The notes under the pieces are model-generated. The model had not been told where the DNA came from and did not search any database. It saw nothing but the letters and a program-made list of their open reading frames with translations. A DNA stretch of 22,073 nt from a virus: IMG/VR virus record IMGVR_UViG_3300044237_000942, positions 1-22,073 of that record; one strand, given 5' to 3'. Positions 1,072 to 17,337 of this stretch are shown piece after piece. How positions within the stretch are numbered: position 1 is the stretch's first letter; every line of letters starts with the position of its first letter. Position numbers and translations under genes: made by a program.

Positions 1072-1715
1072 GCTTTACTCTTGCTACGTTAAAATCAGCT
1101 ATACAAGATTATACACAAAATGATGAAACTAATTTTGTTTCTAATCTTAATAATTTTATAAGATTAGCAGAAGAAAGAATATTTAAATCTGTACAATTAA
1201 ATTATTTTAGAAAAAACGCTGCAGGTTCAATGTCTTCTGGAAATAGATTTCTTGCTTGTCCTACTGATTTTATAGCACCTTACTCTTTGAGTATAACAAA
1301 TAGCAGTAATATAGAATTTTTGTTGTTTAAAGATTTAGATTTTATTCAAACGTATACACCAGACTCTTCTACTACAGGTGTTCCTAAATATTATGCTCAA
1401 TTTGATGTAGATAATTTTATACTAGCTCCAACTCCAAATGCTAATTTTACAACAACGTTAAGTTACTTTTATCGACCCGCAAGTTTAACTGCAGGAGCGG
1501 ATAGTGGCACTACTTGGATTAGTGAAAATGCAGAAGTGGCTCTTTTGTATGGTTCTTTAGTTGAAGCCTATATATACATGAAAGGTGAACAAGATGTTCT
1601 TAGTGCATATAATTCTAAGTTTACTGAAGCGTTATCGAGAGTAAAAAGTCTTGGTGAAGCTAATGAAGTTTCTGATACCTATAGAACTGGTTTAATTAGA
1701 AGGCAAAAAACATGA
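1068..1715 (+). CDS. Phage adaptor-family protein (head-tail joining)
   Basis: 215 residues. The pattern includes an N-terminal helical part with LNNFIRLAEERIFKSVQ (about 27-43), a beta-rich centre with SSGNRFLACPTDFIAPYSL (about 56-74), GVPKYYAQFD, ILAPTPNA and SYFYRPASLT. The C-terminal helices contain EVALLYGSLVEAYIYMKGEQ. This matches a family common in tailed phages of many hosts and usually labelled phage adaptor or head-tail protein. Its role is probably to bridge the connector and the tail hub. It sits directly after two other neck-type genes and overlaps both neighbours by four bases (ATGA at 1068 and 1712). The family call rests on remembered sequence pattern; the exact structural position is not shown. 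Confidence 0.6.
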   Translation: MSFTLATLKSAIQDYTQNDETNFVSNLNNFIRLAEERIFKSVQLNYFRKNAAGSMSSGNRFLACPTDFIAPYSLSITNSSNIEFLLFKDLDFIQTYTPDSSTTGVPKYYAQFDVDNFILAPTPNANFTTTLSYFYRPASLTAGADSGTTWISENAEVALLYGSLVEAYIYMKGEQDVLSAYNSKFTEALSRVKSLGEANEVSDTYRTGLIRRQKT

Positions 1716-2005: not shown

Positions 2006-2442
2006 TGGCTTTTACTAATAATTTTTTATGCACATCTTTTAAAGTAGAATTGTTAAAAGGAGTTCATAATTTTAGTTCTTCTGGTGGTAATACCTTTAAC
2101 ATAGCTTTATATGATAATAACGCTAGTTTTAATGCTTCAACTACGGCCTACACTACTAGTAATGAAATAAGTGGAACTAATTACACTGCTAAAGGTCAAG
2201 CACTTAATCCAGTAACTCCAACTTCAAGTGGAACAACGGCTATTGTTGATTTTGCTGACGAAACTTTTTCAAGTGTTACCATATCTAACGTAAGAGGAGC
2301 TTTGATATTTAACGACACTGCTTCTGGTGATCCTGCAGTTGCTGTATTAGATTTTGGTGCAGACAAAGCGGCTAGTAGCGGTGATTTTACAATTGTTTTT
2401 CCAACGGCAGATGCGAGTAATGCGATCATAAGGATTGCGTAA
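2005..2442 (+). CDS. Small beta-rich virion protein preceding the fibre block
   Basis: 145 residues, rich in Thr, Ser, Ala and Asn, and almost certainly beta-structured. It begins MAFTNNFLCTSFKVELLKG, with FNIALYDNNASFNASTTAY near residues 30-48 and a hydrophobic GALIFND segment near 97-103. It ends in ADASNAIIRIA. I recognise this as a family found beside tail-fibre genes in uncultured marine phages, but it has no assigned function. It is preceded by AAGGAG (1993-1998) with good spacing to ATG 2005. Its TAA overlaps ATG 2442 of the first long fibre, so the two are probably made together. It may be a fibre base, cap or decoration protein; that is inference. Confidence 0.6.
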   Translation: MAFTNNFLCTSFKVELLKGVHNFSSSGGNTFNIALYDNNASFNASTTAYTTSNEISGTNYTAKGQALNPVTPTSSGTTAIVDFADETFSSVTISNVRGALIFNDTASGDPAVAVLDFGADKAASSGDFTIVFPTADASNAIIRIA

Positions 2443-4733
2443 TGGCCTTAGTTTTAAAAGATAGAGTAAAGGAAACTACAACAACAACGGGTACAGGAGC
2501 AATAACTCTTGCTGGTGCTGTTAGTAACTTTCAAACTTTTACTTCTGTCCTTTCTAATGCTGATACCACTTACTATGCTATTATTGACGATACTAATAAT
2601 GAATTTGAAGTTGGTTTAGGAACCTTTGCATCAAGTGGAACTACTCTCACTAGAACCACTATATTAGAAAGCTCTAACTCCGGTAGTGCGGTAAATTTAG
2701 GTACAGGCACTAAACAAGTGTTTATGACGTATCCTGCAGAGAAATCTGTGTTTCTTGATGCTAATAATCATGTAGAACTTACTGGTGGAGCGATATCTCT
2801 TAAAAATGCAGGGTCACAATCTCGTATTGATTTTTACTGTGAATCAAGCAATGCACATTATGCTAGACTACAAGCACCAGCACACTCTGCTTTTTCTGGA
2901 AATGTTACAATTACTCTTCCTGCAACGACAGATACACTTGTGGGAAAAACAACGACAGATACATTAACTAATAAGACATTAACAAGTCCTACTATTTCAA
3001 GTCCTGCCATAACTGGAACAGCTACATTTGGTGGTTCTAGTGGAGTAAGCATATCTCAAGGTGCAGTATCTATAAAAAATGGTGGTACTCAATCCTATGT
3101 AGATTTCTACTGCGAATCAAGTAACGCTCACTATGCAAGGCTTCAAGCACCAGCTCATTCAGCTTTCAGTGGTAACATTACTCTTACCTTACCTGCAACA
3201 ACCGACACTTTAGTAGGTAAAACAACTACAGATACTCTTACAAATAAAACACTTACAAGTCCTACAATTAGTGGTGCATCCACAACAATAGCAAGTCCTG
3301 CGATTACTGGCACTGCAACTTTTGGTGGAGCTAGTGGTGTAAGTATATCACAAGGTGCAATTTCAATAAAAAATGGTGGTACTCAGTCTTATGTAGATTT
3401 TTATTGTGAGTCATCAAATGCTCACTACGCAAGATTACAAGCACCCGCACATTCGGCTTTTAGTGGTAACATTACTCTAACAATGCCTGCTACTACTGGA
3501 ACAATTGCATTAACCTCCGATGTTCAAACAACAGAACAAATACAAGACCTTATAGGAGCCATGTTTAGCTCCAACACAGAAACAGGTATTACAGTTGATT
3601 ATCAAGATGATGATGGTACGATTGATTTAGTTATTGCTGATGCATCTACAAGCGCAAAAGGATTGGCTTCATTTTCTTCAGATGATTTTAGTGTAAGTTC
3701 TGGTGCAGTTACGATTAAGTCTAGTGGTATTACAAATACACAACTTGCAGGATCAATAGCTAATTCTAAACTAGCAAATTCTTCTGTAAGTTTTGGAGGA
3801 ATATCTTTAGCTTTAGGTGCTTCTGATGCGACACCTGCTTTTGATTTATCTGACGCAACAAATTATCCAACAAGTAGTTTGTCTGGTACAATTACAAATG
3901 CACAACTCGCAGGTTCTATCGCTAATTCTAAACTAGCTAATAGTTCAATTACAGTATCAGATGGTTCTAATACAACTGCCACTGCGTTAGGTGGCACAAT
4001 AACATTTTCTGGAACGAGTAATGAAGTTGATGTTGCAGAGAGTTCTGGAACGATAACAGTTGGTTTACCTAATGATGTTACAGTAAGCAACAATCTTACA
4101 GTTTCAGGAAACTTAACTGTATCTGGTACGACCACACAAACAGGCGCTGTAACCACAAACGATAACTTTAATATATTATCTAATAACAATAGTGCTAATA
4201 ACACAGATTTTGGTTTGGCAGGTAAATACGTAGAATCTAGCACAACAAAATATGCAGGTATTTTTTATGATGCTTCAACTGACAATACTTTTAGATTATT
4301 TTGTGATACTCAAACAGAACCATCTACAACAGTAAATACAAGTGCTACTGGATATGCAGCTGCTAATTTAATTATAGGTGCTTTAACCGCTTCTGGTATA
4401 ACTATTGGATCCACCGCAGTTAGTGCTACAGCTGCTGAATTAAATATACTTGATGGAGTAACTGCTACTACTTCTGAATTGAATATACTTGATGGAGTAA
4501 CTGCTACTACTTCTGAATTGAATATACTTGATGGTGTAACTTCAACAACCTCAGAGTTAAACTTACTTGATGGAGACACATCTGCAAGTTCTTCTATAAC
4601 TATAGCAGACGCTGATCGATTTATTGTAAATGATAATGGAACTATGAAACAGATAGCAGCATCAGATTTAAAAACATACACAGTTGCAGCATCGGCAGAC
4701 GATGCAACAGCATTAGCAATCGCATTGGGGTAA
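2442..4733 (+). CDS. Tail fibre/adhesin 1, repeat-rich, without S74 chaperone
   Basis: 763 residues. The N-terminal module (about 1-107, MALVLKDRVKETTTTTGTG to the VFMTYPAEKSVF segment) is a widespread phage structural start domain, probably the virion attachment part. Residues 118-355 hold nearly three copies of a 91-98-residue module that includes SSNAHYARLQAPAHSAFSGN. A Ser/Thr/Asn-rich beta shaft follows, with two NAQLAGSIANSKLANSS-like segments. Near the end are four tandem 13-residue units of ELNILDGVTATTS type (666-717), then a tail containing DADRFIVNDNGTMKQIAASD. This end is common in marine phage fibres. No S74 Ser-Asp pair and no terminal coiled-coil are present, unlike the four later fibres, so trimerisation must depend on something else. 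It probably binds a surface receptor or forms a shaft. The fibre role is well supported; the target is unknown. Confidence 0.8.
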   Translation: MALVLKDRVKETTTTTGTGAITLAGAVSNFQTFTSVLSNADTTYYAIIDDTNNEFEVGLGTFASSGTTLTRTTILESSNSGSAVNLGTGTKQVFMTYPAEKSVFLDANNHVELTGGAISLKNAGSQSRIDFYCESSNAHYARLQAPAHSAFSGNVTITLPATTDTLVGKTTTDTLTNKTLTSPTISSPAITGTATFGGSSGVSISQGAVSIKNGGTQSYVDFYCESSNAHYARLQAPAHSAFSGNITLTLPATTDTLVGKTTTDTLTNKTLTSPTISGASTTIASPAITGTATFGGASGVSISQGAISIKNGGTQSYVDFYCESSNAHYARLQAPAHSAFSGNITLTMPATTGTIALTSDVQTTEQIQDLIGAMFSSNTETGITVDYQDDDGTIDLVIADASTSAKGLASFSSDDFSVSSGAVTIKSSGITNTQLAGSIANSKLANSSVSFGGISLALGASDATPAFDLSDATNYPTSSLSGTITNAQLAGSIANSKLANSSITVSDGSNTTATALGGTITFSGTSNEVDVAESSGTITVGLPNDVTVSNNLTVSGNLTVSGTTTQTGAVTTNDNFNILSNNNSANNTDFGLAGKYVESSTTKYAGIFYDASTDNTFRLFCDTQTEPSTTVNTSATGYAAANLIIGALTASGITIGSTAVSATAAELNILDGVTATTSELNILDGVTATTSELNILDGVTSTTSELNLLDGDTSASSSITIADADRFIVNDNGTMKQIAASDLKTYTVAASADDATALAIALG
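2793..3508 (+). repeat. Three diverged copies of a 91-98-residue module in fibre 1
   Basis: The copies start at 2793, about 3066 and about 3360 (protein residues 118, 209 and 307); the third is shortened. A 21-residue core, ESSNAHYARLQAPAHSAFSG plus N, is identical in all three. Its codons differ at 14 of 21 positions between copies 1 and 2 and at 10 of 21 between copies 2 and 3, all synonymous. Copies 1 and 2 also share TTDTLVGKTTTDTLTNKTLT. Confidence 0.9.
4437..4592 (+). repeat. Four tandem 39-bp units (ELNILDGVTATTS) in fibre 1
   Basis: Units start at 4437, 4476, 4515 and 4554. The first two differ by one base (tta/ttg in codon 2). The third differs in the last five codons, and the fourth has become ELNLLDGDTSASS. 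The gradient of identity points to recent unequal duplication at the first two units. Confidence 0.9.
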
Positions 4734-4736
4734 GAT

Positions 4737-5096
4737 ATGGCAAATACATTTAAGGTAAAAACAAACGCAGCCATGCCTGCTTCATCTGGTACACCTTTGA
4801 CATTATATACTTGTCCAGGAACAGATACGAACACAAAAGCTGTTGTTTTAGGATTGATTCTTTGTAATGTTCATACCTCTCAAGTTACTGTTAGTGTGCA
4901 TTTAGAGTCTAATACAAGTGATACTGAATCTAATGAAAATGTAAAATTACTAAGTGATGTTCCTATACCAGTAGGAAGTTCTTTAGAAGTTTTAGCTGGT
5001 AATAAAGTTGTATTGCAAGGCACTGATGTTATGAAGATAGATTGTTCTGTTGCTGCTAAAATAGACGCAACTCTTAGTGTTATGGAGATCACATAA
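4737..5096 (+). CDS. Small beta-rich phage structural protein
   Basis: 119 residues. It begins MANTFKVKTNAAMPASSGTP, then TLYTCPGTDTNTKAVVLGL and alternating hydrophobic strands (QVTVSVHLES, SLEVLAGNKVVLQ, TLSVMEIT). Proteins of this size and pattern are common next to tail-fibre genes in cyanophages and other marine phages; no function is established that I know of. An all-beta fold is likely. ATG 4737 lies three bases after the stop of fibre 1, and its TAA overlaps ATG 5096 of fibre 2. Its place between two fibre genes suggests a collar, adaptor or decoration protein for one of them. Confidence 0.6.
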   Translation: MANTFKVKTNAAMPASSGTPLTLYTCPGTDTNTKAVVLGLILCNVHTSQVTVSVHLESNTSDTESNENVKLLSDVPIPVGSSLEVLAGNKVVLQGTDVMKIDCSVAAKIDATLSVMEIT

Positions 5097-6982
5097 TGGC
5101 CTACATTGGTATTGATGCCAAAAAAGATATTAGATTAAACGCCACCTCTGATTTAGATCTAACGTCTGATAGCACTACTATTAAATTTGGTGCTGATGAT
5201 GATGTTACACTGACTCATGTACATAATACTGGATTATTATTAAACTCAACAAATCAATTTCAATTTGGTGATAGTGGTACATACATACACCAATCTGCTG
5301 ATGGTGTTTTAGATTTAGTTTCTGATACAGAGATTGAGATAAATGCAACAACAATAGATATAAATGGTAATGCAGATATAAGTGGTAATGCTACGATTGG
5401 TGGATCAACTGTTACTGATAGTAATATGTTAAATATACAAGGAGATGGTTCTTCTGTTAATGTAGGTGCTGTTTTTAATAAAACGAATAGCACTGCTCAG
5501 ATATGGTCTACACAAGTAAGAAACTCAGATAATGCTTTTTTAATTCATAATTATACTGCAAATTCAACTCCTTTAATTATATCAACGGCAGGAGCAGCTA
5601 CTTTTAATTCTACTGCTACTTTTGGTGGGAACATTACAACATCTGTTGATAACACTGTTATAGCTCCTTATGGGTCGTTTGTAGGGTTTGTTAAGAAAAG
5701 TGGCACAGCAGGTTCTATTTCTTATGCTAGTTCACAAAGTTTAATATTTTCACAATCTGATGCAAGCTCTTTGTCTGATCCATCAAGTGAAACTTATAGT
5801 GAAAAAATGAGGATAGATTCTGATGGTGATATTTTTATAGGAACAAGTTCAGATATAGCACCTACAAATGGAACTAATTTATATATTTCTGATGGTACTG
5901 TTAGCCGTTTTGGGTTGGAAAAAACTGGTAGTGACGCAAGAAAATTTTCAATTGGAAATGGAGGTACATATTTAAACATTTATGATGAAACTGCTGATGC
6001 AGAACGCATGAGGATAGGGTCAGGTGGAGAAGTAGCAATAGATACTGATACTTTTTACGTAGATGCAGCTAATAATAGAGTTGGTATTAGATCAACTAAT
6101 CCTCATGCTTTTTTTGATGTTAAATGTGGCTCAGATTCAAGAGTTTTATTTATAGATAGTGGTGGTGATCCAGAAATTGTTGCTATTAATGACGCAAATA
6201 CAGCTTATGGACATTTACTACTTGATGGTAATACTATTCGTTTTAAAATTTCTAATAATGAAAAAATGAGGATTGATAGCTCTGGTCATGTTTTTGTTGC
6301 AAAAACTAGTTCAGCATTAGCTACTGTTGGATCAGAGCTTTTAAATGATGGTAGAATTGTTGCTACGGCAGATAATCAGAATGTTTTATTAATTAATAGG
6401 AAAACTTCTAATGGCAGTCTTGCTACTTTTTACAAAGATGGCAGTGAGGTAGGAAATATTGTAACAGAAGCAGATACTATTTCAATTGGATCAGGTGACA
6501 CTGGATTAAAGCTTGTTCCCTCTCTTGATGCGTTATTACCCTATAATAATTCAAGTCTTTCTAATCGTGATGATGCTATTGATTTAGGTTATAATACTGT
6601 ACGTTTTGATGATATTTATGCAACTAATGGAACAATTCAAACGTCAGATGAAAAAGAAAAAAATACTATAGTAGACAGTGATTTAGGTTTAGATTTTATT
6701 AAAAGACTTTCTCCAAAAAGTTATAAATTTAATAATAAAACTAGAACTCATTATGGATTAATTGCTCAAGATGTTGAAACTGTATTATCTGACATAAGTA
6801 AATCAAACACTGATTTTGCAGGTTTAATTAAAGGTGATATTAGTGAAAATCAAGATGGTAGTAATTATCGTTATGGCCTTAGGTATACAGAATTAATTGC
6901 ACCTATGATTAAAGCATTGCAAGAAGCAAATGAAAAAATAGAAACATTAGAAGCAAGAATAGCTAAATTAGAAGGAGGATAA
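5096..6982 (+). CDS. Tail fibre 2 with C-terminal peptidase S74 chaperone
   Basis: 628 residues. The N-terminal part (MAYIGIDAKKDIRLNATSD onward) is a beta-rich attachment and shaft region. The motif (E/K)(K/R)MRI followed by a Gly-containing turn occurs at residues 236, 303 and 389. A module with DAIDLGYNTVRFDDIYATNG precedes the chaperone. The S74 domain starts at S517-D518 in TSDEKEKNT, with the partner Lys at 522; in the endosialidase family cleavage falls between that Ser and Asp. GLIAQDVETV and YTELIAPMIKALQEANEKIE follow, then a coiled-coil ending LEARIAKLEGG. The domain is about 111 residues, normal for the family. The chaperone trimerises the fibre and is released. The last codons contain GAAGGAGG (6971-6978), the ribosome binding site of the next fibre. 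Receptor unknown. Confidence 0.85.
   Translation: MAYIGIDAKKDIRLNATSDLDLTSDSTTIKFGADDDVTLTHVHNTGLLLNSTNQFQFGDSGTYIHQSADGVLDLVSDTEIEINATTIDINGNADISGNATIGGSTVTDSNMLNIQGDGSSVNVGAVFNKTNSTAQIWSTQVRNSDNAFLIHNYTANSTPLIISTAGAATFNSTATFGGNITTSVDNTVIAPYGSFVGFVKKSGTAGSISYASSQSLIFSQSDASSLSDPSSETYSEKMRIDSDGDIFIGTSSDIAPTNGTNLYISDGTVSRFGLEKTGSDARKFSIGNGGTYLNIYDETADAERMRIGSGGEVAIDTDTFYVDAANNRVGIRSTNPHAFFDVKCGSDSRVLFIDSGGDPEIVAINDANTAYGHLLLDGNTIRFKISNNEKMRIDSSGHVFVAKTSSALATVGSELLNDGRIVATADNQNVLLINRKTSNGSLATFYKDGSEVGNIVTEADTISIGSGDTGLKLVPSLDALLPYNNSSLSNRDDAIDLGYNTVRFDDIYATNGTIQTSDEKEKNTIVDSDLGLDFIKRLSPKSYKFNNKTRTHYGLIAQDVETVLSDISKSNTDFAGLIKGDISENQDGSNYRYGLRYTELIAPMIKALQEANEKIETLEARIAKLEGG
6950..6978 (+). repeat. 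29-bp exact repeat, copy 1 (end of fibre 2)
   Basis: Identical over 29 bases to 11430-11458 at the end of fibre 4. It encodes EARIAKLEG and part of the next Gly in the terminal coiled-coil, and includes the ribosome binding site. The end of fibre 3 (about 9272-9299) is a diverged version. Confidence 0.9.
6971..6978 (+). promoter_or_regulatory. Shine-Dalgarno site inside the end of fibre 2
   Basis: GAAGGAGG is part of the codons for the final Glu-Gly-Gly of fibre 2 and lies four bases before ATG 6983. It is a near-perfect anti-16S match and decides the start of fibre 3. Comparable sites end fibre 3 (GAAGGAG at 9293-9299, before ATG 9307), fibre 4 (GAAGGAGG at 11451-11458, before ATG 11464) and fibre 5 (GGAG at 14926-14929, before ATG 14937). 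Confidence 0.8.
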
Positions 6983-9304
6983 ATGCCATACTTAGGCAAA
7001 TCACCATCACAAGGCGTAAGGACCAGATTTCAGTTTACCCCTAATGCAGGTACAACTGCTATTAATGGTGTTGATGCTAATAATCTTACTCTTTCTTTTA
7101 CCGATGGTAATTACGTAGATGTATACCTTAATGGTGTTATGCTTAAAGCAGGTGTTGATTATAATACTACTACGGCAAATCAGGTAACACTTAGTAGTGG
7201 AACTGTAGCAAGTGATGTTGTTGATATTGTGGTGTATGATACCTTTAGTTTATTTGGTGGCACACTAGAGGGTAATGTTAAAGTAAACAATGGTACGTTT
7301 AATGTAACAGGTGCAGTAGATTTTGATAGTACACTTAATGTAGATGGAGTAGTAACAACTGATGGTGCTACACATGATGGTGACGTAACCTTCACTGGTG
7401 CAAACTACAATGCTGTTTGGGATAAGTCCGATAATGCCCTAGAGTTTGGAGATAATGCCAAAGCTGTTTTTGGTGCAGGAAGTGATTTAATTATTCAACA
7501 TGATGGAAGCAGAAGTATAATACAAGACAATGGTACTGGTAATTTAAGAATACAAGCAAATAATCTTGAACTTAAAAATGCAGATAACTCTCACGACTAT
7601 GTTTTTTGTTCAAATGGTGGTGCAGTAGAACTTTATCACAATAATTCTAAAAAAATAGAAACAACATCTAGTGGTGTTACTGTTAGTGGTTATGCTTATA
7701 TTACGGAAAATTCAGGCACTACACAACTTTATCTAAGATCAAATTACAATAGCACTGGGCCAGCTATACAAGGAGCAACAAATCATCCTTTAATGTTTTT
7801 AACTAATAACAGTGAAAAAATGAGGATAGATAGCTCTGGTCGTGTTGGTATTGGCACAGGTAGTCCTAGTCAATTAATGGAAATAAGTTCTTCATCTGAC
7901 CCTAAAATACGCATAAATAATTCTTCCACTTCTTTATCTGCTAATACAAGCATTGGTGGTCTTGAGTTTAATACAAATGATGCGAGTGAAGGGGGAACAG
8001 GTATTGGCGCAAGTATAGAGGCTAAAGCTTCAGGAAATTTTGGGTCAAATCAACAAGGTCTATACTTAGCTTTTTCTACTCGTGATTCAGGTTCAAGTGA
8101 AACCAACACAGAACGCATGAGGATTGACAGCAGCGGTAATGTTGGTATTGGAGAAACCAGTCCTGACACACTACTTCACATAAGTGGCGCACCTGATAAT
8201 AAAGTAATTACAATGGATCAAAGTGGAAGACAAAGTGCTATAGGCACTTACTTTTCTTCTGGATCAACCGACAGTCGCATTGATTTTTATGTTTCTAATG
8301 GGAATACAGACGGCACTGCAAATAAGAGAGTGTCCATAATGGGTGATGGTCGTGTAGGCATAGGAACAGATTCACCTCAATTTGGTGGAAGTGGTGAAAC
8401 TAGTTTAGACGTTACTGGTCCAATATTATTTCGTGGTGCAATTGTTGCACATCAAACAAATGCTGGAGCTTTAGAATATTCTGGTAATTTATTTAAGATC
8501 AGAGCTTATGGTGCTAGTTCTGGAGATGGAAAAATTTCTTTTCGTGCAGGAGGAGGTGGTGGTTCTACAGATGTAGAAGCAGCTACTATTGATGGTAATG
8601 GAAAACTTATATGTTTTGGTACTGCTGTTGCATATGCTTTAGAAGCACGAAATTCTAATGCAAATCCTTATGGTCAATTTATACAGTTTACAGGAGGCGC
8701 ACCAGATAATAATACAAATCAATTTTTAGCTTGTTCAGATAATTCAACAACAAGATTACAAATAACGGCTGATGGTGACGTACAAAATCACGATAACAGT
8801 TATGGTTCTATTTCTGATGAAAGAATTAAACAAGATATTGTAGATGCTAATTCTCAATGGGATGATATTAAATCAATTAAAGTTAGAAATTTTAAAAAGA
8901 AAGATGATGTTGACCAATATGGTGATAAAGCTTGGACACAAATTGGTGTCATTGCACAAGAGATAGAAACAGTAAGTCCTAAACTTATCAAAGAAAGCTC
9001 ACCTTCTGCTAGTGATATAAAGCACAGTGCAGAGTTTGGAACATTGTATACTAAAGATGATGCTGAAACTCAAGATGCTGTTTTATATACAAGTGATGAT
9101 GAAGAAGTAAAAAGTGGTGATAAAGAAGTAGGAGATATTAAAACTCCATCAACTAAACAAATAGGTGAAGTTAAAGAAATAAAAGAAAATGTAAAAAATG
9201 TAAGTTATTCTGTTCTTTATATGAAGGCAGTTAAAGCCTTGCAAGAAGCAATGACAAGAATAGAAACATTAGAAGATAAAGTAGCTAAATTAGAAGGAGC
9301 TTAA
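6983..9304 (+). CDS. Tail fibre 3 with C-terminal peptidase S74 chaperone
   Basis: 773 residues. The N-terminus (MPYLGKSPSQGVRTRFQFTP to about residue 92, with VDVYLNGVMLKAGVDY) is a start module shared by many marine phage fibres and probably anchors the fibre. Residues about 167-235 hold a recurring module with DLIIQHDGSR, GNLRIQANN and VELYHNNSKKIETTSSGV. The (E/K)xMRI-Gly motif is at 278 and 377, with a variant KRVSIMGDGRVGIG at 448. A Gly-rich part (RAGGGGGSTDVEAATIDGNG) follows. The S74 site is S611-D612 in SDERIK, with Lys 616, the canonical form. The chaperone is long (about 162 residues) because of a charged insert at about 684-739, seen in related S74 domains. It ends YMKAVKALQEAMTRIETLED and KVAKLEGA, a coiled-coil. 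ATG follows the previous TAA directly. Receptor unknown. Confidence 0.87.
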   Translation: MPYLGKSPSQGVRTRFQFTPNAGTTAINGVDANNLTLSFTDGNYVDVYLNGVMLKAGVDYNTTTANQVTLSSGTVASDVVDIVVYDTFSLFGGTLEGNVKVNNGTFNVTGAVDFDSTLNVDGVVTTDGATHDGDVTFTGANYNAVWDKSDNALEFGDNAKAVFGAGSDLIIQHDGSRSIIQDNGTGNLRIQANNLELKNADNSHDYVFCSNGGAVELYHNNSKKIETTSSGVTVSGYAYITENSGTTQLYLRSNYNSTGPAIQGATNHPLMFLTNNSEKMRIDSSGRVGIGTGSPSQLMEISSSSDPKIRINNSSTSLSANTSIGGLEFNTNDASEGGTGIGASIEAKASGNFGSNQQGLYLAFSTRDSGSSETNTERMRIDSSGNVGIGETSPDTLLHISGAPDNKVITMDQSGRQSAIGTYFSSGSTDSRIDFYVSNGNTDGTANKRVSIMGDGRVGIGTDSPQFGGSGETSLDVTGPILFRGAIVAHQTNAGALEYSGNLFKIRAYGASSGDGKISFRAGGGGGSTDVEAATIDGNGKLICFGTAVAYALEARNSNANPYGQFIQFTGGAPDNNTNQFLACSDNSTTRLQITADGDVQNHDNSYGSISDERIKQDIVDANSQWDDIKSIKVRNFKKKDDVDQYGDKAWTQIGVIAQEIETVSPKLIKESSPSASDIKHSAEFGTLYTKDDAETQDAVLYTSDDEEVKSGDKEVGDIKTPSTKQIGEVKEIKENVKNVSYSVLYMKAVKALQEAMTRIETLEDKVAKLEGA

Positions 9305-9306
9305 AC

Positions 9307-9642
9307 ATGGCAGCAACGTGGACAATAACAAGCACTCAATATGACATCAAAGGGTCAAAAGGTGATAATCAAATAACTACATTACATTGGGAATGCACAG
9401 ATAGTGAGGATGTAACAACTGATGGTGAAACTGTAACGCATAGTGGTAGAGTTTATGGTTCAATAGCTATACCAGAACCCTCAGGTACGTTTATAGAATA
9501 CGCAAAAGTAACACATGATAATTGTGTAACTTGGTGTAAAGCTATTATGGGTGATGATCAAGTTAAGGCTTACGAGGATTCAGTACAAAATCAGATAAAT
9601 CTATCAAAAACGCCCACACATGGTAGTGGAAAGCCTTGGTAA
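9307..9642 (+). CDS. Small conserved phage protein between fibres 3 and 4
   Basis: 111 residues beginning MAATWTITSTQYDIKGSKGD, with HWECTDSEDV near residue 29, GSIAIPEPSGTFIEYAKVTH in the middle, and an amphipathic end with CVTWCKAIMG, DDQVKAYEDSVQNQINL and KTPTHGSGKPW. The plan (beta start, W.K..LG, Lys-Thr-Pro near a final Trp) matches small proteins that accompany tail fibres in marine cyanophages, which I believe form a DUF family without known function. Three Cys residues (HWEC, NCVTWC) are unusual for a phage cytoplasmic-phase protein, but no metal site is evident. GAAGGAG at 9293-9299, inside the end of fibre 3, serves as its ribosome binding site. Confidence 0.6.
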   Translation: MAATWTITSTQYDIKGSKGDNQITTLHWECTDSEDVTTDGETVTHSGRVYGSIAIPEPSGTFIEYAKVTHDNCVTWCKAIMGDDQVKAYEDSVQNQINLSKTPTHGSGKPW

Positions 9643-9659
9643 TTTAAAAGGATTTTAAT

Positions 9660-11462
9660 ATGAGTAGAGCCAGAGACATTGCTAATCTACAAAGTGGTGG
9701 CGTTATAAATGACGCTAGTGCAGACCTAGACTTTCGTATTGAGAGTGGTGGTAATGCTAATATGTTATTTGTAGATGGTGGTAACGATGTTTTAGTTATA
9801 GGACAAAACGCACCAGACACTACCATATCAGGTAGTAAACCTGCTTTTCAAGTTATTGGTTCTGGATTTGATGGAATGGCTGCTATAACTAGAAGAGATA
9901 GTGGTGTTTATGGACCAGCCTTAATACTTTCTAAAAGTAAAAGTACAACTCCAGATAATTATTCAATAGTCGCAAATGGTGACACTCTTGGTGGTATTAC
10001 CTTTATTGGTGATGATGGTACAAACCTTGATACTTATGGTGCTACAATACAAGCAGTAGTAGATGGCACACCGGGTGAAAATGATATGCCTACAAGACTT
10101 GTTTTCTCAACAACTGCTGATGGTGCAGCTAGTCCTACTGAACGCATGAGGATAGATAGTTCTGGTAATGTAGGTATTGCCATGACACCAGACAGTGCTG
10201 TTAAGCTAAGTGTAAGTGGTGCAATTGGACCAACAAACGGATCAGAATCTGCACCAACACACACTTTCTATAGTGATGCAGACACTGGAATGTTTAGAGC
10301 TGCTGCAAACACACTTGCATTTGCTACTGGAGGTAGTGAACGTATAAGAGTATTTGCTACAGGTAGTGTAGCTATTGGTAGCGATACACCGGGAATAGGA
10401 AATGATTCAGGCACAGAGTTAACTGTATCTCATGGTACAGAAGCAAGTATAACTATAAGATCAGGAACAAGTAATCATGGAAATATTTATTTTTCTGATG
10501 CTACTTCAGGTACAGCCGAGTATGTAGGATTTATAAGATATAATCATGGTTCTAACTATATGATGTTTCAAACTAATGGATCAGAACGCATGAGGATAAG
10601 TTCTGCAGGTGACGTATCTATAGGAACTTCAGTATCCCCACCAGTAGGTTTAACAATAACAGCAGATGAAGATAATCATGGTGTTAATCTAACGAGACTA
10701 GCAGATAGTGGTAATCCCTCAAATGGAGAAGAATTAGGAAGTTATGCTTGGAATAGTAACGCTGAAGCAAGTAATAGTCTAGCTAGTGCTGAAGCTAAAA
10801 TTACAGCAGTTACTACACAAGCTCATAGTGGAACTGTTGCAGGAACAATAATGAAGTTTTATTGTAAACCAGATGATGTTGGTCCGGGTTCTGCTCCATA
10901 TAATGTAATGAATATGAATGGTTATGCTTTAATGATTAAAGCTACTGCTAACACTACAAATGTATTTGGTGCTTCTAAATTTTTTATTAATGCTGAAAAT
11001 CAAAATAATGGTATGATTATTGATAATGCTAGAGAAAATTATACTGGTTATGGGTTTCAAGCAAATGATAATACAGGAACTAGGTATCCTATGTACATTG
11101 TTAATGGAGATGGAACTAATGTAGGTTCTATTTCAATGACAAGTACTGCTACAGCTTTTAATACTTCTTCTGATTATCGTTTAAAAGAAAATGTTAATTA
11201 TGATTGGGATGCAACTAGTACGATCAAACAATTAAAGCCTTGTAAGTTTAATTTTAAAACAGATACAGATAATACTATTACAGGTTTTTTAGCACATGAA
11301 GCACAATCTGTTGTATCTAATTGTGTAATAGGTGAAAAAGATAAAGTAAACGATAAGGGTAATGCAGAATATCAAAGCATAGACCATAGTAAATTAGTAC
11401 CATTATTAGTAAAAACAATACAAGAACTTGAAGCAAGAATAGCTAAATTAGAAGGAGGTTAG
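9660..11462 (+). CDS. Tail fibre 4 with C-terminal peptidase S74 chaperone
   Basis: 600 residues. It begins MSRARDIANLQSGGVINDAS, a common phage fibre start. The (E)R(M/I)R(I/V)-Gly motif occurs at residues 161, 227 and 309. The second copy lies in the widespread module SDADTGMFRAAANTLAFATG-GSERIRV. A mixed-beta region with YNVMNMNGYALMIKATANTT follows. The S74 site is S504-D505 in SSDYRLKENV, with Lys 509, a canonical match; the chaperone of about 96 residues continues with FLAHEAQSVV and ends LVKTIQELEARIAKLEGG. AAAAGGA before ATG 9660 is the ribosome binding site, after a 17-base gap. The 3' end is identical over 29 bp to the end of fibre 2, though the rest of the two chaperones differs clearly. 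Receptor unknown. Confidence 0.85.
   Translation: MSRARDIANLQSGGVINDASADLDFRIESGGNANMLFVDGGNDVLVIGQNAPDTTISGSKPAFQVIGSGFDGMAAITRRDSGVYGPALILSKSKSTTPDNYSIVANGDTLGGITFIGDDGTNLDTYGATIQAVVDGTPGENDMPTRLVFSTTADGAASPTERMRIDSSGNVGIAMTPDSAVKLSVSGAIGPTNGSESAPTHTFYSDADTGMFRAAANTLAFATGGSERIRVFATGSVAIGSDTPGIGNDSGTELTVSHGTEASITIRSGTSNHGNIYFSDATSGTAEYVGFIRYNHGSNYMMFQTNGSERMRISSAGDVSIGTSVSPPVGLTITADEDNHGVNLTRLADSGNPSNGEELGSYAWNSNAEASNSLASAEAKITAVTTQAHSGTVAGTIMKFYCKPDDVGPGSAPYNVMNMNGYALMIKATANTTNVFGASKFFINAENQNNGMIIDNARENYTGYGFQANDNTGTRYPMYIVNGDGTNVGSISMTSTATAFNTSSDYRLKENVNYDWDATSTIKQLKPCKFNFKTDTDNTITGFLAHEAQSVVSNCVIGEKDKVNDKGNAEYQSIDHSKLVPLLVKTIQELEARIAKLEGG
11430..11458 (+). repeat. 29-bp exact repeat, copy 2 (end of fibre 4)
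   Basis: Identical to 6950-6978. It encodes the last turns of the coiled-coil and carries GAAGGAGG for the next gene (ATG 11464, five bases downstream). Confidence 0.9.
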
Positions 11463-11463
11463 A

Positions 11464-11670
11464 ATGACTGAAGAAGCACAAAATATTATTAATATAGATG
11501 GAAAAGAGTATAATCCTACTGACATGAGTGAAGAGCAAAGATACCTCATAGCTCAAATACGAGATCTACAAACTAAAGCAAACCAGGCTAAGTTTCATTT
11601 AGATCAACAACAAGTAGCGTTAAACTTCTTTACTAATAAACTAATAGAGTCATTAAATAAGAAAGAATAA
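11464..11670 (+). CDS. Small coiled-coil protein, DUF6447-like
   Basis: 68 residues. IINIDGKEYNPTDMSEEQRY (8-27) is followed by one long helix (LIAQIRDLQTKANQAKFHLD..QVALNFFTNKLIESLNKKE). A short INIDGKEY strand before a coiled-coil helix matches a small family in cyanophages and other marine phages that I recall as DUF6447, of unknown function. It is probably oligomeric through the helix. Its start is served by the GAAGGAGG inside fibre 4, and its TAA overlaps ATG 11670. Its place just after a fibre gene suggests a fibre assembly chaperone or adaptor; this is inference. The family label is from memory of the pattern. Confidence 0.6.
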   Translation: MTEEAQNIINIDGKEYNPTDMSEEQRYLIAQIRDLQTKANQAKFHLDQQQVALNFFTNKLIESLNKKE

Positions 11671-12371
11671 TGTTTGGTCATCACTCACTTTCAGAAACAT
11701 CTTTTGCAACTGATGCTATTGATTTATTCTTTACACCAACGGGTGTAAGTGGCACTGGATCAACTTTTGCAAGTGATTATACAATAAACACTAGTTCAAG
11801 TATTTTTGTGCTAGGAACAGAAGGTTTTACGGGAACAGGATCGGCTCCTGTGTTAGGAGCAGATGGTTTAGAAATAACGTTTTCAAAAATTGAATCAGCT
11901 ATTGCAGAACTTGCAGTAGAAAATCAAGCAGCAGCCAATGCTAGTTTTGCCGCTGCTTCTGTTGCGGGCAATGTTCTTTTTCAAAGTCAAGCTTCAGACG
12001 ATTTAATTGATGATTTAAGTTCTGTCCTTTCTTTTTCAGAAACAGATTCAGTATCAGATACTGCAGCGCAAAATACGGCTAACCGTTCTTTATTTGGAGC
12101 TTTAGTTGCAAGTTTAAATGGTGCGGGTATTCAGACAACAAATGTAGGTGTCCAAGGCACAATGGAAATCGGTAGAGTTCTTGTGTGGGGCAATCTTGAA
12201 ATTACACAAGATCCGAGTTATAGTGAAGTTGTACCAAGTCAAACACCAAGTTTTAGTAATGTCACACCAAGTCAAACACCAAGTTTTAGTAATGTCACAC
12301 CAAGTCAAACACCAAGTTACTCTTCAGTAACTCCGAGTCATAGTCCATCTTGGGACCAACAAGAAGCATAG
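11670..12371 (+). CDS. Phage structural protein with C-terminal PSQTPS repeats
   Basis: 233 residues. It begins MFGHHSLSETSFATDAIDLF, with Gly/Thr/Ser-rich strands (about 20-75), an Ala-rich helical part (AIAELAVENQAAANASFAAA, about 88-107) and MEIGRVLVWGNLEITQDPSY near 170-189. From residue 189 it carries three 11-residue repeats of PSQTPSFSNVT type and a partial fourth, ending PSHSPSWDQQEA. Similar proteins with a VWG...DPxY part followed by PSxxPxW repeats occur in uncultured marine phages. The repeat looks like a proline-rich extended stalk with an aromatic residue in each unit, so a flexible or carbohydrate-contacting tail is possible. Function unknown. ATG 11670 overlaps the previous TAA, and eight bases separate its TAG from the last fibre. 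Confidence 0.6.
   Translation: MFGHHSLSETSFATDAIDLFFTPTGVSGTGSTFASDYTINTSSSIFVLGTEGFTGTGSAPVLGADGLEITFSKIESAIAELAVENQAAANASFAAASVAGNVLFQSQASDDLIDDLSSVLSFSETDSVSDTAAQNTANRSLFGALVASLNGAGIQTTNVGVQGTMEIGRVLVWGNLEITQDPSYSEVVPSQTPSFSNVTPSQTPSFSNVTPSQTPSYSSVTPSHSPSWDQQEA
12234..12353 (+). repeat. 33-bp tandem repeat (PSQTPSFSNVT)
   Basis: Units start at 12234, 12267 and 12300, with a partial unit from 12333. Units 1 and 2 are identical in DNA; unit 3 keeps its first 18 bases and then diverges (PSQTPSYSSVT); the last is PSHSPSW. Exact identity of two units suggests recent slippage, so copy number may vary between strains. Confidence 0.9.
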
Positions 12372-12379
12372 GATAGAAA

Positions 12380-14944
12380 ATGAGTACATTTGTTAATGAT
12401 CTAAGATTAGAAGAAATAGGTTCTGGAGAACGTTCTGGTACATGGGGTACAGCTACAAATACGAACTTATCTCTCATAGCGGAAGCTTTCAGTTATGGAA
12501 CTGAAACAATGGGCGATGCTAATACAACGATTACAATGTCAGACGCTGTTAGTGATGAGGTACGTTCTTTATATTTAAAAATAACCTCTAGTGCAGATTT
12601 AACTACGACAAGAGTTGTTACCCTTGCTCCAAATGCTGTTAGTAAGGTTTGGATTATTGAGAATGCTACAAGTGGTAGTCAAATTATAACTATTAAACAA
12701 GGTAGTGGAGCTACAGTAAATATTCCAAATGGTTCTGTAAAAGTTATTGCTACAGATGGTGGTGGCACAAGCGGTGCGGTATTTGATTTATTTACTGATT
12801 TAGATGTAGCAGGAACCTTTGCAGTAGCAGGGAATACCACAGTGGGTGGTACTCTGACCTCTACAGGGGCAGTAACAGCCAATGCTGGTGTATCTATAGA
12901 TAATATAACAATTGATGGTACAGAAATAGACTTATCTTCTGGAGATCTAACACTCGATGTAGCAGGGGATATTGTTCTTAACTCAGATGATGGAATTATC
13001 TTTTTAAAAGATGATACAGCTACTTTTGGATCCTTAAATAATTCAAGTGGTAATTTAATCATTAAATCAGGAACCACAACGGCAGCTACCTTTAGTGGAG
13101 CGAATGTAACTCTCGCAGGTACGGTGGTAACTGGTGGACTAACAACTTTAGGTGGTAATCTTATTATACCTAATGATGGAAATATTGGTTCTGTAGGAGA
13201 TACAGATGCTATTGATATTGATAGCAATGGTGTAGTGACCATGAACCAGATACCCGTATTCAGTGCAGGTATTAACGTATCTGGTGGTACGATTATAGGC
13301 ACATTAGCTACAGCTGCACAGACAAACATAACTTCTGTAGGTGCGTTGGGAGGTGGTAGTATATCTTCTGGCTTTGGAGCAATTGACAATGGAAGTAGTA
13401 ATATTACAACAACAGGTACAATTTCTTTTGGATCCTTGACCGATGGCACAACCACCATAACTAGCGTAGATCAAGATATTTCATCTGTAAGTAGTAGTCA
13501 TGATACTTTAGCAACAGCAAAAGCAATAAAAGCTTACGTAGATAGTCAAACCGTTACGGCAACAGGTCTTAGTGGCATTGGAACTGAAAACGTACATATT
13601 GGAGGAAGTTCATTAGCTAATATTACAAGTGATGCTGTCAGAAATGTTGCTTTTGGACAAGAAGCAGGTACTGCAATAACTTCAGGAGACCTAAATGTTG
13701 CCGTAGGGTATCAAGCTTTACAATCTGCTACAACAGATTCACAACACGTAGCTGTAGGATTAGGTGCATTAGGTAACACTAATCAAGCTACCTCTGGAGA
13801 TGGTCACAATGGAAATGTGGGAGTAGGAACATATGCAGGTGCTACTAACATTACTGGAAGACAACAAGTTTTTGTTGGAACTCGTTCTGGTAGATACATA
13901 CTTGGTGGACAAAATACATCATGTGGTCATGGCGCGTTAGAGGGAGTTTTTAATACTGACACTTCAGATGTTCAACAGTGTGCAGCTGTTGGTTTTAATG
14001 CGTTGTCTGCTATTACTACAGGAGACAGTAATACGGCTGTTGGAGCTAGTGCAGGATCTAAAATAACCACAGGACATTATAATGTTTTAGTTGGACAAGA
14101 AGCTCATGGTCCTACTACAGGAGATAATAATGTAGCTGTAGGTAGAGGAGCTTTAAGTACTAATTTAACATCTGGAGATGATAATGTAGCTATTGGATTT
14201 GAAGCAATGAGATATGTTTCTGGAGCGCAAAATGTAGCTGTAGGGTATCGTGCTTTGCTAGGAAGTTCTAGCACTGCTATGTCTGGATCATCTAATGTTT
14301 GTATTGGTTATAATGCAGGAGGAGGACAAACTGGTAATATAAGTGATAATGTTTATATAGGAGGTAATTCTGGTGCTAATGCAACAAACGAATATAATGT
14401 AGCTATTGGTTTTAGAACTCTTCAAAATGCTACTGGAGAAAAAAATACAGTTATTGGTTGGCAAGCAGGAAATGATATAACTTCAGGTAGTAATTTAACT
14501 TGTGTAGGTTATAACGCAGACCCCTCTTCTAATAGTGCAACTAATCAAATAACTTTAGGTGATGCTAATGTTGCAACTTTAAGATGTAACACTCAAACAA
14601 TAAGTAGTCTATCAGATATAAGAGATAAAAAAGATGTTAAAGATATTGATATTGGATTAGACTTTGTAAATGATCTTCGCCCTGTAAATTTTACTTGGGA
14701 CAGACGAGATGGTTCTATGAATAATATAAAGAGTCAAGGATTTATTGCTCAAGAGGTAGATCAAATTCAACAAAAGCATGATTGTGAAGATTATCTTCAA
14801 GCAGTTATGAAAGAAAATCTTGATAAACTTGAGATGTCTTATGGAAAATTTGTTCCTGTTTTAGTTAGTGCAATTCAAGATCTTTCAAAACAAAATAAAC
14901 AATTAGAAAATCGTATTTTAGAATTGGAGAAAAATAATGTCTAG
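12380..14944 (+). CDS. Tail fibre 5: YadA-head-like beta-roll plus S74 chaperone
   Basis: 854 residues, the longest fibre. The N-terminal module (about 1-135) contains LRLEEIGSGERSGTWGTATN and VWIIENATSG, a start seen in many phage fibres. A beta shaft follows (about 135-400, LDVAGTFAVAGNTTVGGTL onward). Residues about 422-730 carry many repeats of N-V-A-(V/I/F)-G-x-x-A/G type (NVAVGYQAL, NVAVGRGAL, NVAIGFEAM, NVAVGYRAL, NVAIGFRTL), the signature of the left-handed parallel beta-roll of YadA-type trimeric adhesin heads. NQITLGDANVATLRC leads to the S74 site S745-D746 in LSDIRDKKDV, with Lys 750; GFIAQEVDQI and a coiled-coil (LSKQNKQLENRILELEKN) follow. Position 5 of the site is Asp where Leu/Ile is usual. 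It overlaps the next gene by eight bases. Probably a trimeric receptor-binding fibre. Confidence 0.85.
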   Translation: MSTFVNDLRLEEIGSGERSGTWGTATNTNLSLIAEAFSYGTETMGDANTTITMSDAVSDEVRSLYLKITSSADLTTTRVVTLAPNAVSKVWIIENATSGSQIITIKQGSGATVNIPNGSVKVIATDGGGTSGAVFDLFTDLDVAGTFAVAGNTTVGGTLTSTGAVTANAGVSIDNITIDGTEIDLSSGDLTLDVAGDIVLNSDDGIIFLKDDTATFGSLNNSSGNLIIKSGTTTAATFSGANVTLAGTVVTGGLTTLGGNLIIPNDGNIGSVGDTDAIDIDSNGVVTMNQIPVFSAGINVSGGTIIGTLATAAQTNITSVGALGGGSISSGFGAIDNGSSNITTTGTISFGSLTDGTTTITSVDQDISSVSSSHDTLATAKAIKAYVDSQTVTATGLSGIGTENVHIGGSSLANITSDAVRNVAFGQEAGTAITSGDLNVAVGYQALQSATTDSQHVAVGLGALGNTNQATSGDGHNGNVGVGTYAGATNITGRQQVFVGTRSGRYILGGQNTSCGHGALEGVFNTDTSDVQQCAAVGFNALSAITTGDSNTAVGASAGSKITTGHYNVLVGQEAHGPTTGDNNVAVGRGALSTNLTSGDDNVAIGFEAMRYVSGAQNVAVGYRALLGSSSTAMSGSSNVCIGYNAGGGQTGNISDNVYIGGNSGANATNEYNVAIGFRTLQNATGEKNTVIGWQAGNDITSGSNLTCVGYNADPSSNSATNQITLGDANVATLRCNTQTISSLSDIRDKKDVKDIDIGLDFVNDLRPVNFTWDRRDGSMNNIKSQGFIAQEVDQIQQKHDCEDYLQAVMKENLDKLEMSYGKFVPVLVSAIQDLSKQNKQLENRILELEKNNV

Positions 14945-15176
14945 AACAGATGAGGAAAAATCTACCCATTATTCTGCAATGAGTGATAGTGTAGAAGTAA
15001 TCAATGATATTATTGATGGATCTAAAATTCCTAATGCTACCACTGAAGAAAAAAAAGAACGTGTGGCTCGTAACTACACTCATTTAGAGGGGATGGTTGC
15101 ATTAGACGATTGGGGTGATGAAGACATGACAGCATCTAATAAAGCTATTATAGATGGTAAAGCTTACGTAGGATAA
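14937..15176 (+). CDS. Small acidic protein following fibre 5
   Basis: 79 residues, acidic, mostly helical. It begins MSRTDEEKSTHYSAMSDSVE, with RVARNYTHLEGMVALDDWGD (43-62) and a final EDMTASNKAIIDGKAYVG. The pattern RN..HLE.M.A...W..ED (M/L)...N.AI..GK occurs in small proteins beside tail-fibre genes in cyanophages; the role there is not established to my knowledge. ATG 14937 lies inside the end of fibre 5 in another frame, with GGAG at 14926-14929 as ribosome binding site, so it is probably made together with that fibre. A fibre-specific assembly factor is a reasonable guess. Confidence 0.6.
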   Translation: MSRTDEEKSTHYSAMSDSVEVINDIIDGSKIPNATTEEKKERVARNYTHLEGMVALDDWGDEDMTASNKAIIDGKAYVG

Positions 15177-15177
15177 T

Positions 15178-17337
15178 ATGCCTTTAACTAGATTACAGTT
15201 TAAACCTGGTATTAATAGAGAAACAACCTCATCCTCTAATGAGGGTGGCTGGTTTGACTCAGATAAAATAAGGTTTAGATTTGGTTATCCAGAAAAAATA
15301 GGAGGTTGGGTAAAATATTCAACTGAATCTTTTTTAGGTAAATGTAGAGCTTTAAAAGCTTGGATGGCCTTGGACAATACTAAATATTTAGGTGTAGGAA
15401 CTAGTAACAAATATTACATTGAAGAAGGTTTAACTTTTTCTGATATTACACCTCTTAGATTAACAACAGATGCAGGTGATATTTCAGCCATAAACGCTGC
15501 AAGCACGACAATAAACGCTAGTATTAATGATTCCGCAAGAACGATATCTTTGGCAAGCACTACTAATTTTGCTCCAAGTGGATTTGTAAAAATAGGATCA
15601 GAAGAAATAAAATATGATTCTATTGATACAACCAATAATGATTTATTGTCTTGTACTAGAGGGGTACATGGAACAACGGCGGCTAGTCATAGTTCTGGTG
15701 CAGCTGTTGGAACCTCAACTTTGAAAGTTACTCATACAAGTCATGGTGCAACTGTGAATAGTTTTGTCACAATCAGTGGTGCAGCGTCTTTAGGTGGGAA
15801 TATGATAGGAGCAGGTGACAGTAGCACAGATGTCCTTAATCAAGAGTATCAAATAGCTGCCGTAGAAGTTGGTAACGCCAATACTTATTATATCAATGCA
15901 AGAACAGCTGCTACAACTATAAAAAGTTTGACATCAAATGGTGTTGTAACGTTTGGTGCAGGAACATTGGTTTACTCTACTTCTAGTGATTCTGGAACTG
16001 GTGGTTCAAGTATCGTGGGTAGATATCAAGTGAATGTAGGATTGGATGATTCTCTTACCTCACTTGGTTGGGGTGCTGGACCTTGGAACGCAGGAACTTG
16101 GAACACAACTGTGTCTACAGTAGATACCATGAGAATATGGAGCCACGATAATTTTGGTCAAGATCTATTAATTAACGTTAGAGATGGCGAGATAGGTTAT
16201 TGGAGAAAGGACAATGGAACAAACACAAGAGCTGTTTTATTAAATTCACTATCGGGTTCTACTCTTGCTCCAACTGTCGCTAAACAAATTATGGTTTCAG
16301 ATATAGATAGACACGTTATTGTCTTTGGTTGTGATGGAGAAACAAGTATTGGTACACAAGATCCTTTGTTAATAAGGTTTGCTGATCAAGAGAGTCTTAC
16401 GGATTGGAAAACGGAAGCAACAAACACTGCGGGAGAACTTAGAGTTGGTTCTGGTTCTGAAATAATTATGGCTGTAGAAACGAGACAACAAATCCTTGTT
16501 TTTACAGATGTGTCCTTACACTCTATGCAGTTCATTGGTCCACCTTTTACTTTTGGTATTTCTACTATTGCAGAAGGCATTACTGTTGCGGGTCCATTGG
16601 CGGCTGTTTCTGTAGAAAACAGTGTGTTTTGGATGGGTCAAAATGAGTTCTATGTTTTTTCCGGTTCTGTACAGAGATTACCATGCACTGTAAAAGATCA
16701 CGTTTTTAGTGATTTTAATACAGAACAAATAGAAAAAGTTGTAGCGGGATTAAATTCTGAATTTGCTGAAATATGGTGGTATTATCCATCTGCTAATGCC
16801 ACAGAAAATGATAAATATGTTATTTTTAATTACGAACAAAAAATATGGTATTTTGGTTCTTTGAACAGAACTGTTTGGATGGACAGAGGCGTTAAATCTT
16901 TACCTATAGCTGCTTCGGCTGATTATCATTTGTATAATCATGAAACGGGTTTTGACGATGGCAGTACGAGTCCTTCCAGTGCTATATCCGCTCATATTCA
17001 ATCTAGTCAGATAGATATAGGAGAGGGAGATAGGTTCTTGCTTCTTTCTAAAGTATTACCAGATATTACCTTTAGAGATTCTACTAGTAGCACTCCCAAA
17101 GCTAATTTAACTTTCTTTACTAAAAACTTTCCCGGTAAAGGATTTGCTCAAAACCAAGCGGGTTCCGTAACACAATCCGTGGCGGGTTCGACCTCGGTCA
17201 TTGAACAATTTACTGAAGAACTTAATTTAAGGTTGCGAGGGCGATCTTTTTCGTTAAAAATAGATTCATCCGAGAAAGAAGTTACTTGGAGACTAGGAAC
17301 TCCAAAAGTAGATATAAGACCAGATGGAAGACGATAA
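15178..17337 (+). CDS. Tail hub/DNA-stabilisation-type protein (P22 gp10- or T7 gp12-like)
   Basis: 719 residues. It begins MPLTRLQFKPGINRETTSSS followed by EGGWFDSDKIRFRFGYPEKIGGW, a start typical of tail-hub proteins of podoviruses (P22 gp10, T7 gp12 type), though longer than P22 gp10. An insert around residues 120-185 holds a module with EIKYDSIDTTNNDLLSCTRG-VHGTTAASHSSG, a recurring phage segment. The later half is beta-propeller-like by composition (VFGCDGETSIGTQDPLLIRF, FWMGQNEFYVFSGSVQRLP, VIFNYEQKIWYFGSLNRT). It ends ITF...SEKEVTWRLGTPKVDIRPDGRR, a C-terminal pattern seen in marine phage relatives. It would close the connector channel and hold packaged DNA. It begins one base after the previous TAA, and its own TAA overlaps the ATG of the terminase gene. 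The hub role is inferred. Confidence 0.6.
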   Translation: MPLTRLQFKPGINRETTSSSNEGGWFDSDKIRFRFGYPEKIGGWVKYSTESFLGKCRALKAWMALDNTKYLGVGTSNKYYIEEGLTFSDITPLRLTTDAGDISAINAASTTINASINDSARTISLASTTNFAPSGFVKIGSEEIKYDSIDTTNNDLLSCTRGVHGTTAASHSSGAAVGTSTLKVTHTSHGATVNSFVTISGAASLGGNMIGAGDSSTDVLNQEYQIAAVEVGNANTYYINARTAATTIKSLTSNGVVTFGAGTLVYSTSSDSGTGGSSIVGRYQVNVGLDDSLTSLGWGAGPWNAGTWNTTVSTVDTMRIWSHDNFGQDLLINVRDGEIGYWRKDNGTNTRAVLLNSLSGSTLAPTVAKQIMVSDIDRHVIVFGCDGETSIGTQDPLLIRFADQESLTDWKTEATNTAGELRVGSGSEIIMAVETRQQILVFTDVSLHSMQFIGPPFTFGISTIAEGITVAGPLAAVSVENSVFWMGQNEFYVFSGSVQRLPCTVKDHVFSDFNTEQIEKVVAGLNSEFAEIWWYYPSANATENDKYVIFNYEQKIWYFGSLNRTVWMDRGVKSLPIAASADYHLYNHETGFDDGSTSPSSAISAHIQSSQIDIGEGDRFLLLSKVLPDITFRDSTSSTPKANLTFFTKNFPGKGFAQNQAGSVTQSVAGSTSVIEQFTEELNLRLRGRSFSLKIDSSEKEVTWRLGTPKVDIRPDGRR

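Follow-up and report, generated by a model that had tools for sequence, protein, structure and literature searches.

Short conserved N-terminal peptides hook a second receptor-binding protein in KP34-like, K1-5, and SP6 phages (PMC6872550). In the Alteromonas phages A5 and V22, a fiber is encoded together with a chaperone that works in trans and resembles the intramolecular chaperones of the S74 type, and this fiber-plus-chaperone module is common to unrelated phage families (PMC10579305). Tail fiber variability in marine phages is also already known (PMC3909814). Cleavage by S74 chaperones has been described for the T5 fiber, where the scissile bond is Thr1263-Ser1264, i.e., before the serine, which is not seen in the mature fiber; Lys1269 (+5), Arg1250 of the neighboring chain (-14), and Asp1239 (-25) take part, and serine is kept as the last residue only in the phi29 model (PMC4690869).

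Here, we analyzed the 22,073-base IMG/VR virus record IMGVR_UViG_3300044237_000942 (referred to as the window), for which four self-cleaving S74 fibers in one operon, and a fifth fiber without the chaperone, had been predicted. We found no published description of this four-S74 array in our literature search. The genes are named F1 to F5, g4737, and g11670, and the main point of comparison is a sister virus, IMGVR_UViG_3300030389_001641 (G002, 56.9 kb).

Organization of the locus

The five-gene array forms one gapless gene block once the two small open reading frames next to F4 and F5 are counted (Table 1), in agreement with the compact operon originally predicted. It is flanked upstream by tail adaptor genes and downstream by a tail nozzle gene, which is the position expected for the host-recognition locus of a short-tailed phage. 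Judging from these adaptor and nozzle genes of an uncultured fragment, the phage is probably short-tailed and P22/LUZ24-like. A search of the window found no RNA elements or tRNAs. Promoter-like sites between genes numbered 48, fewer than the 61 expected by chance, and no terminator pattern stood out between genes: 10 terminator-like sites were found in the region versus 6.9 expected, and the two plus-strand sites within the array both lie inside coding sequence. An invertible or switchable cassette was considered and rejected, given that there are no notable paired inverted repeats and none flanking any gene. The conserved protein g11670, which lies between variable fibers, had no PHROG match.

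Table 1. Features of the fiber array and its flanks. Residue pairs give the Ser and Lys of the S-D-x-x-x-K site.
Feature	Position	Strand	Evidence
Tail adaptor-type genes, upstream of array	101-766 and 1068-1715	+	PF24175 SU10_adaptor above cut-off, 54.3 and 88.7 bits
F1 (adaptor or fiber), slot 1, 763 aa, lacks S74, header ~1-110, C terminus ATALAIALG	2442-4733	+	phrog_30742 tail fiber
g4737, 119 aa, constant companion of fiber array, candidate adaptor	4737-5096	+	phrog_26609/1276, function unknown
F2, slot 2 fiber, 628 aa, S517/K522	5096-6982	+	PF13884, 42.2 bits
S74 domain of F2	6644-6793	+	Six-frame search
F3, slot 3 fiber, 773 aa, S611/K616, header ~1-110	6983-9304	+	PF13884, 39.0 bits
S74 domain of F3	8813-8989	+	Six-frame search
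DUF7936 protein, 111 aa, array companion	9307-9642	+	PF25590, 76.9 bits
F4, slot 4 fiber, 600 aa, S504/K509, header = nonapeptide MSRARDIAN	9660-11462	+	PF13884, 30.3 bits
S74 domain of F4	11169-11327	+	Six-frame search
Small ORF, 68 aa, fills F4-g11670 gap	11464-11670	+	Within 11430-13590, 92% identical in sister
g11670, 233 aa, PSxSxVTPSQTP repeats	11670-12371	+	94% identical in sister
F5, slot 5 fiber, 854 aa, S745/K750, swap junction near 13590	12380-14944	+	PF13884, 42.9 bits
S74 domain of F5	14612-14779	+	Six-frame search
Small ORF, 79 aa, overlaps F5 end, fills gap up to nozzle gene	14937-15176	+
Tail nozzle protein (P22 gp10 / LUZ24 type)	15178-17337	+	phrog_3287 full length; PDB 8zkk/8zkm, E 2.6e-7; 9nwi_Y, E 5.9e-11

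As predicted, F1 carries no S74 domain (Pfam). Its label as a fifth fiber is uncertain because F1-type relatives, which span 112 to 1243 aa, can be as short as 112 to 127 aa. Many proteins of this type (header type H1) have ATALAIALG, or a motif resembling it, at the C terminus, and the length range together with the shared end motif suggests adaptors with constant ends.

S74 domains and predicted cleavage

Peptidase_S74 (PF13884) matches are C-terminal in F2, F3, F4, and F5, score 30.3 to 42.9 bits against a curated cut-off of 22 bits, and begin at the very serines that had been named; a six-frame search of the window returned exactly these four domains. Lysine is found at +5 from the serine in all four. 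The S-D-x-x-x-K site occurs once per protein in F2 to F5 and not at all in F1, and it is kept in 103 of the 106 S74 domains collected here. S-S-x-x-x-K replaces it in three S74-like domains (L192, 10001-11899; L204, 9852-11561; L214, 3718-5646). The (I/L)AxE/D-type segments and coiled-coils expected to follow each site can be read by eye as LIAQDVE, VIAQEIE, FLAHEAQ, and FIAQEVD and as heptad-like C-terminal tails.

The mechanism predicted for the individual S74 tips has a firm basis in what is known of the family: the tips of slots 2 to 5 would fold with the help of the C-terminal chaperone, which would trimerize the fiber and afterward release itself by a cut at the serine, activated by the lysine at +5. 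A cut strictly between Ser and Asp, as first proposed, does not agree with the T5 fiber, in which the bond precedes the serine (PMC4690869). F2 matches the T5 spacing throughout (T516, S517, K522, R503 at -14, and D492 at -25) and matched a T5-type fiber chain at an E value of 0.0033. F3, F4, and F5 keep the serine and lysine and have no arginine at -14, so their cleavage chemistry is less certain. This arginine is present in only 18 of 110 S74 proteins collected here and therefore does not define the family. No solved relative of the F4 S74 domain was found by sequence search.

Origin and distribution of the S74 tips

The S74 domains of F2 to F5 share 27 to 45% identity over their aligned parts and branch at four distinct positions of a tree built from 104 domains (105 columns, with many forks open), which bears out the view that they are not recent copies of one another. 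The proposed pairing of F2 and F5 in one chaperone subtype did not hold up: the best score of F2 is with F3, and F2 and F5 sit apart in the tree. Mapping slot labels on the tree needed 34 changes (minimum, 4; shuffled mean, 41.5), indicating that tips move between slots and are weakly tied to slot. In the sister virus, the S74 domains of F2 and F4 are identical at 94 of 115 residues (82%), the result of recent copying or exchange within that genome.

Among nonredundant relatives, S74 occurs in every slot yet is optional, with frequencies by header type of 1/22 (H1), 16/25 (H2), 19/64 (H3), 14/18 (H4), and 35/155 (H5). The nozzle relatives CRP-901, HTVC023P, DSL-LC04, HTVC027P, and 023Pt_psg01 have no S74 domain, and neither do HMO-2011 and P-SSP10. 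One is found in T7-like pelagiphages and several cyanophages, two in P-SSP2, NATL1A-7, CRP-212, P-SSM2, P-TIM68, and S-N03, and three in S-SRM01 and the cultured phage CRP-235. The generalization that podoviruses usually carry one or two fiber types is therefore too simple for marine ones, given the three S74 proteins of CRP-235 and the two each of CRP-212, P-SSP2, and NATL1A-7. Uncultured relatives mostly have zero to two S74 domains, and G064 has three. The 61-kb contig G062 has up to four distinct S74 domains, two of which are alternative slot 3 tips, probably from different strains; an initial count of six was reduced, because two of them were repeats of genes present at either end of the contig. 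S74 fiber arrays are hence not unique to the window, and its four domains within 22 kb are the highest number among the genomes examined here.

Constant headers and exchanged tips

Assemblies G001 and G012 also contain the four-S74 array, as do the overlapping fragments L089 and L090; all of these are near-identical and probably represent one population. The sister virus, whose array flanks are about 91 to 95% identical to the window at the nucleotide level, has the same order (F1, g4737, F2, F3, DUF7936, F4, g11670, F5, and nozzle) and three S74 domains versus four in the window, its F3 tip being without S74 and followed by phrog_6228. The N-terminal headers are constant between the two viruses: the first 100 residues of F1 are identical, F3 is 91% identical over 150 N-terminal residues, and F5 is 99.5% identical over the first 200 residues in all but one block. 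The F2 header can be compared over only ~18 residues, where the sister contig breaks. The distal fiber parts fall to about 25 to 50% identity or are replaced.

Nucleotide conservation between the window and the sister virus accordingly comes in islands. One (6945-7703) covers the F2 end and the F3 header; another (9304-9686) covers DUF7936 and nine F4 codons, with F4 identity stopping at 9686; and a third (11430-13590) extends from the F4 end to F5 residue 404, after which conservation resumes from 15170. A further relative (L012), 97% identical in the nozzle region, has the same F5 junctions and a different tip, so that the 13590 to 15170 junction is the same in two different relatives. In L171, the F2 header is joined to a different shaft and to a tip that lacks S74. 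The ends of G062 (L334, 3641-8351; L335, 14280-18990) are 99.5% identical over 4.7 kb, after which the slot 3 fiber differs; this looks like strain-level tip variation caught in one assembly. The pattern of constant headers and exchangeable tips, which the original prediction had missed, is partly common to different viruses. The five headers are mutually unrelated in pairwise alignment (z of 2.2 or less), consistent with the unrelated N-terminal modules noted earlier.

Companion genes and candidate helpers of non-S74 tips

We surveyed 40 loci, some of them near-duplicates, that have a slot 3 header and at least 4 kb of upstream sequence. Within 7 kb, a g4737 relative was present in 39 of the 40, a slot 2 fiber in 35, DUF7936 in 20, and a slot 4 fiber in 10; in control loci, a g4737 relative was present in 5/51 and 5/48. 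Part or all of the header and companion set occurs in other podovirus-type backbones (L337 and L338). A siphovirus-type contig with a tape measure and a lambda J-like protein (L336, from G064) has slot 2, 3, and 4 fibers, all three with S74. Tags similar to MSRARDIAN are found on the S74 fiber of three T7-like pelagiphages, as M(S/T)NARDKAN, and in CRP-235 and CRP-212, as M(T/S)KARTLAD. Sequence searches found no solved relatives of g4737, DUF7936, or the F3 header.

The gene directly after the non-S74 F3 of the sister virus belongs to phrog_6228 (e.g., L013, 2754-3008), an 84-residue family of unknown function that has members in 68 phage records, the majority from cyanophages and pelagiphages. 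It follows 21 of 145 non-S74 fibers and none of 77 S74 fibers; within slots 2 to 4, the counts are 15/46 and 0/44 (P = 1.6e-5, a significance inflated by shared ancestry). The other 124 of the 145 non-S74 fibers are without it. In four cultured phages, phrog_6228 lies between a non-S74 fiber and a later S74 fiber. We infer that phrog_6228 is a candidate trans chaperone; the main alternative is a small tip protein, and the mutual exclusion of S74 and phrog_6228 may reflect each merely traveling with its own tip family.

Proposed assembly and alternatives

We favor, with reasonable confidence, an explanation in which five separately docked fibers or adaptors are made together, with slot-specific headers, an exchangeable shaft and tip, and S74 as an optional tip chaperone. 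The constant N-terminal header would set the slot by docking the fiber either onto the adaptor/nozzle tail or onto the fiber next to it, and the constant stretch of slot 4 is just nine residues. The shaft and tip behind it would be exchangeable between viruses and between slots, and other viruses would fill the same slots with non-S74 tips, some followed by phrog_6228 as the candidate trans chaperone. Simultaneous assembly and header-based docking seem likely.

The original prediction left two readings open, several appendages built together or alternative fibers competing for one socket. The latter, in which the array is a gene reservoir from which one or two fibers are mounted per virion, would account for the interchangeability of tips between slots and for the cost of building several long fibers together. 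We consider it unlikely, because the headers are mutually unrelated and slot specific, the sister virus has the slots in the same order, and there is neither a terminator pattern between genes nor a pair of inverted repeats flanking any gene, all of which fits fibers built together better than a single shared socket. That some of the four S74 fibers are decaying or nonfunctional copies is very improbable: such arrays often recombine, yet all frames are intact, the catalytic residues are kept in all four, and the genes are identical or nearly so in other assemblies. Slightly less probable again is that several viruses were joined into one chimeric array during assembly; strains do become mixed in assemblies of loci like this one, as the G062 ends illustrate, but the same order was recovered in G001, G012, L089, and L090 and the same slots in the sister virus.

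A branched assembly would refine, not contradict, the explanation of fibers made together. F1 (or F5) alone would sit on the tail, and F2 to F4 would hang on F1/F5 or g4737 by their short N-terminal peptides, an arrangement put forward for multi-receptor phages of Klebsiella (PMC6872550). The short conserved headers, down to the nine residues of F4, and the near-constant presence of g4737 at slot 3 loci favor this arrangement, as does the F3 header, whose nearest, weak fold matches are fiber anchor/branch domains. Its model (mean pLDDT, 80; residues 1 to 8 disordered) matched podovirus fiber N-terminal and tail-complex chains (LME-1, P-SCSP1u, HRP29, Kp9, and T7 gp17) and residues 1 to 335 of CBA120 TSP4 in Foldseek searches; with E values of 1.8e-3 to 0.1 and a TM score of about 0.4, the likeness is suggestive only. 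The F1 header gave no meaningful match in a fold search, and against branching, Pfam, fold, and solved-relative searches with F1 and g4737 turned up no T4 gp10-like branching domain. We regard branching as a serious possibility that falls somewhat short of an even chance.

More tentatively still, the N-terminal address tags, g4737, and DUF7936 could form a portable, slot-coded adhesin cassette, a standard docking set that works on a number of tail types (those of at least two podovirus lineages and of a siphovirus) and takes interchangeable tips, each with a cis (S74) or trans (phrog_6228) chaperone. If fibers are indeed docked by slot and made together, the host range of marine short-tailed phages would be set by recombining tips, several at once, onto fixed docking headers, which would explain how these abundant phages track varied surfaces with one backbone. 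There would also be a testable rule for fiber folding, with a built-in versus a separate helper, and the header tags would allow such arrays to be found and compared in metagenomes where fibers are otherwise unalignable.

Comparison with known systems

F2 to F5 share with the T5 L-shaped fiber pb1 and the K1F endosialidase the serine, the lysine at +5, and a C-terminal chaperone that is predicted to be trimeric here; the N-terminal parts are unrelated. To our knowledge, T5 and K1F each have a single S74 fiber type. A5 and V22 differ from the window in having one fiber and one trans chaperone, with no multi-slot array. The pelagiphages HTVC168P, HTVC134P, and Bylgja have a second fiber with S74 and a tag much like that of F4, and phrog_6228 after a non-S74 main fiber; unlike the window, they have a single S74 fiber and a T7-like main fiber. 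The cultured Roseobacter phage CRP-235 (52.7 kb) resembles the window in having several S74 proteins (three versus four), a KARTLADF-tagged second S74 fiber, and an adjacent protein that is DUF7936-like by eye, whereas its main fiber has the header MAGYTRQS. A short conserved N-terminal peptide on a secondary fiber is seen in F4, as nine codons kept in the sister virus, and similar tags occur in cultured phages.

The Klebsiella multi-receptor phages KP32, KP34, and phiK64-1, together with K1-5 and SP6, likewise have several receptor-binding proteins that dock by short conserved N-terminal peptides and whose distal parts can be exchanged (PMC6872550). These systems differ in having depolymerase spikes, and that of phiK64-1 is far larger (up to 11). 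The likeness to these phages is one of layout. We regard the array as a host-recognition locus of a known type, densely loaded with fiber genes.
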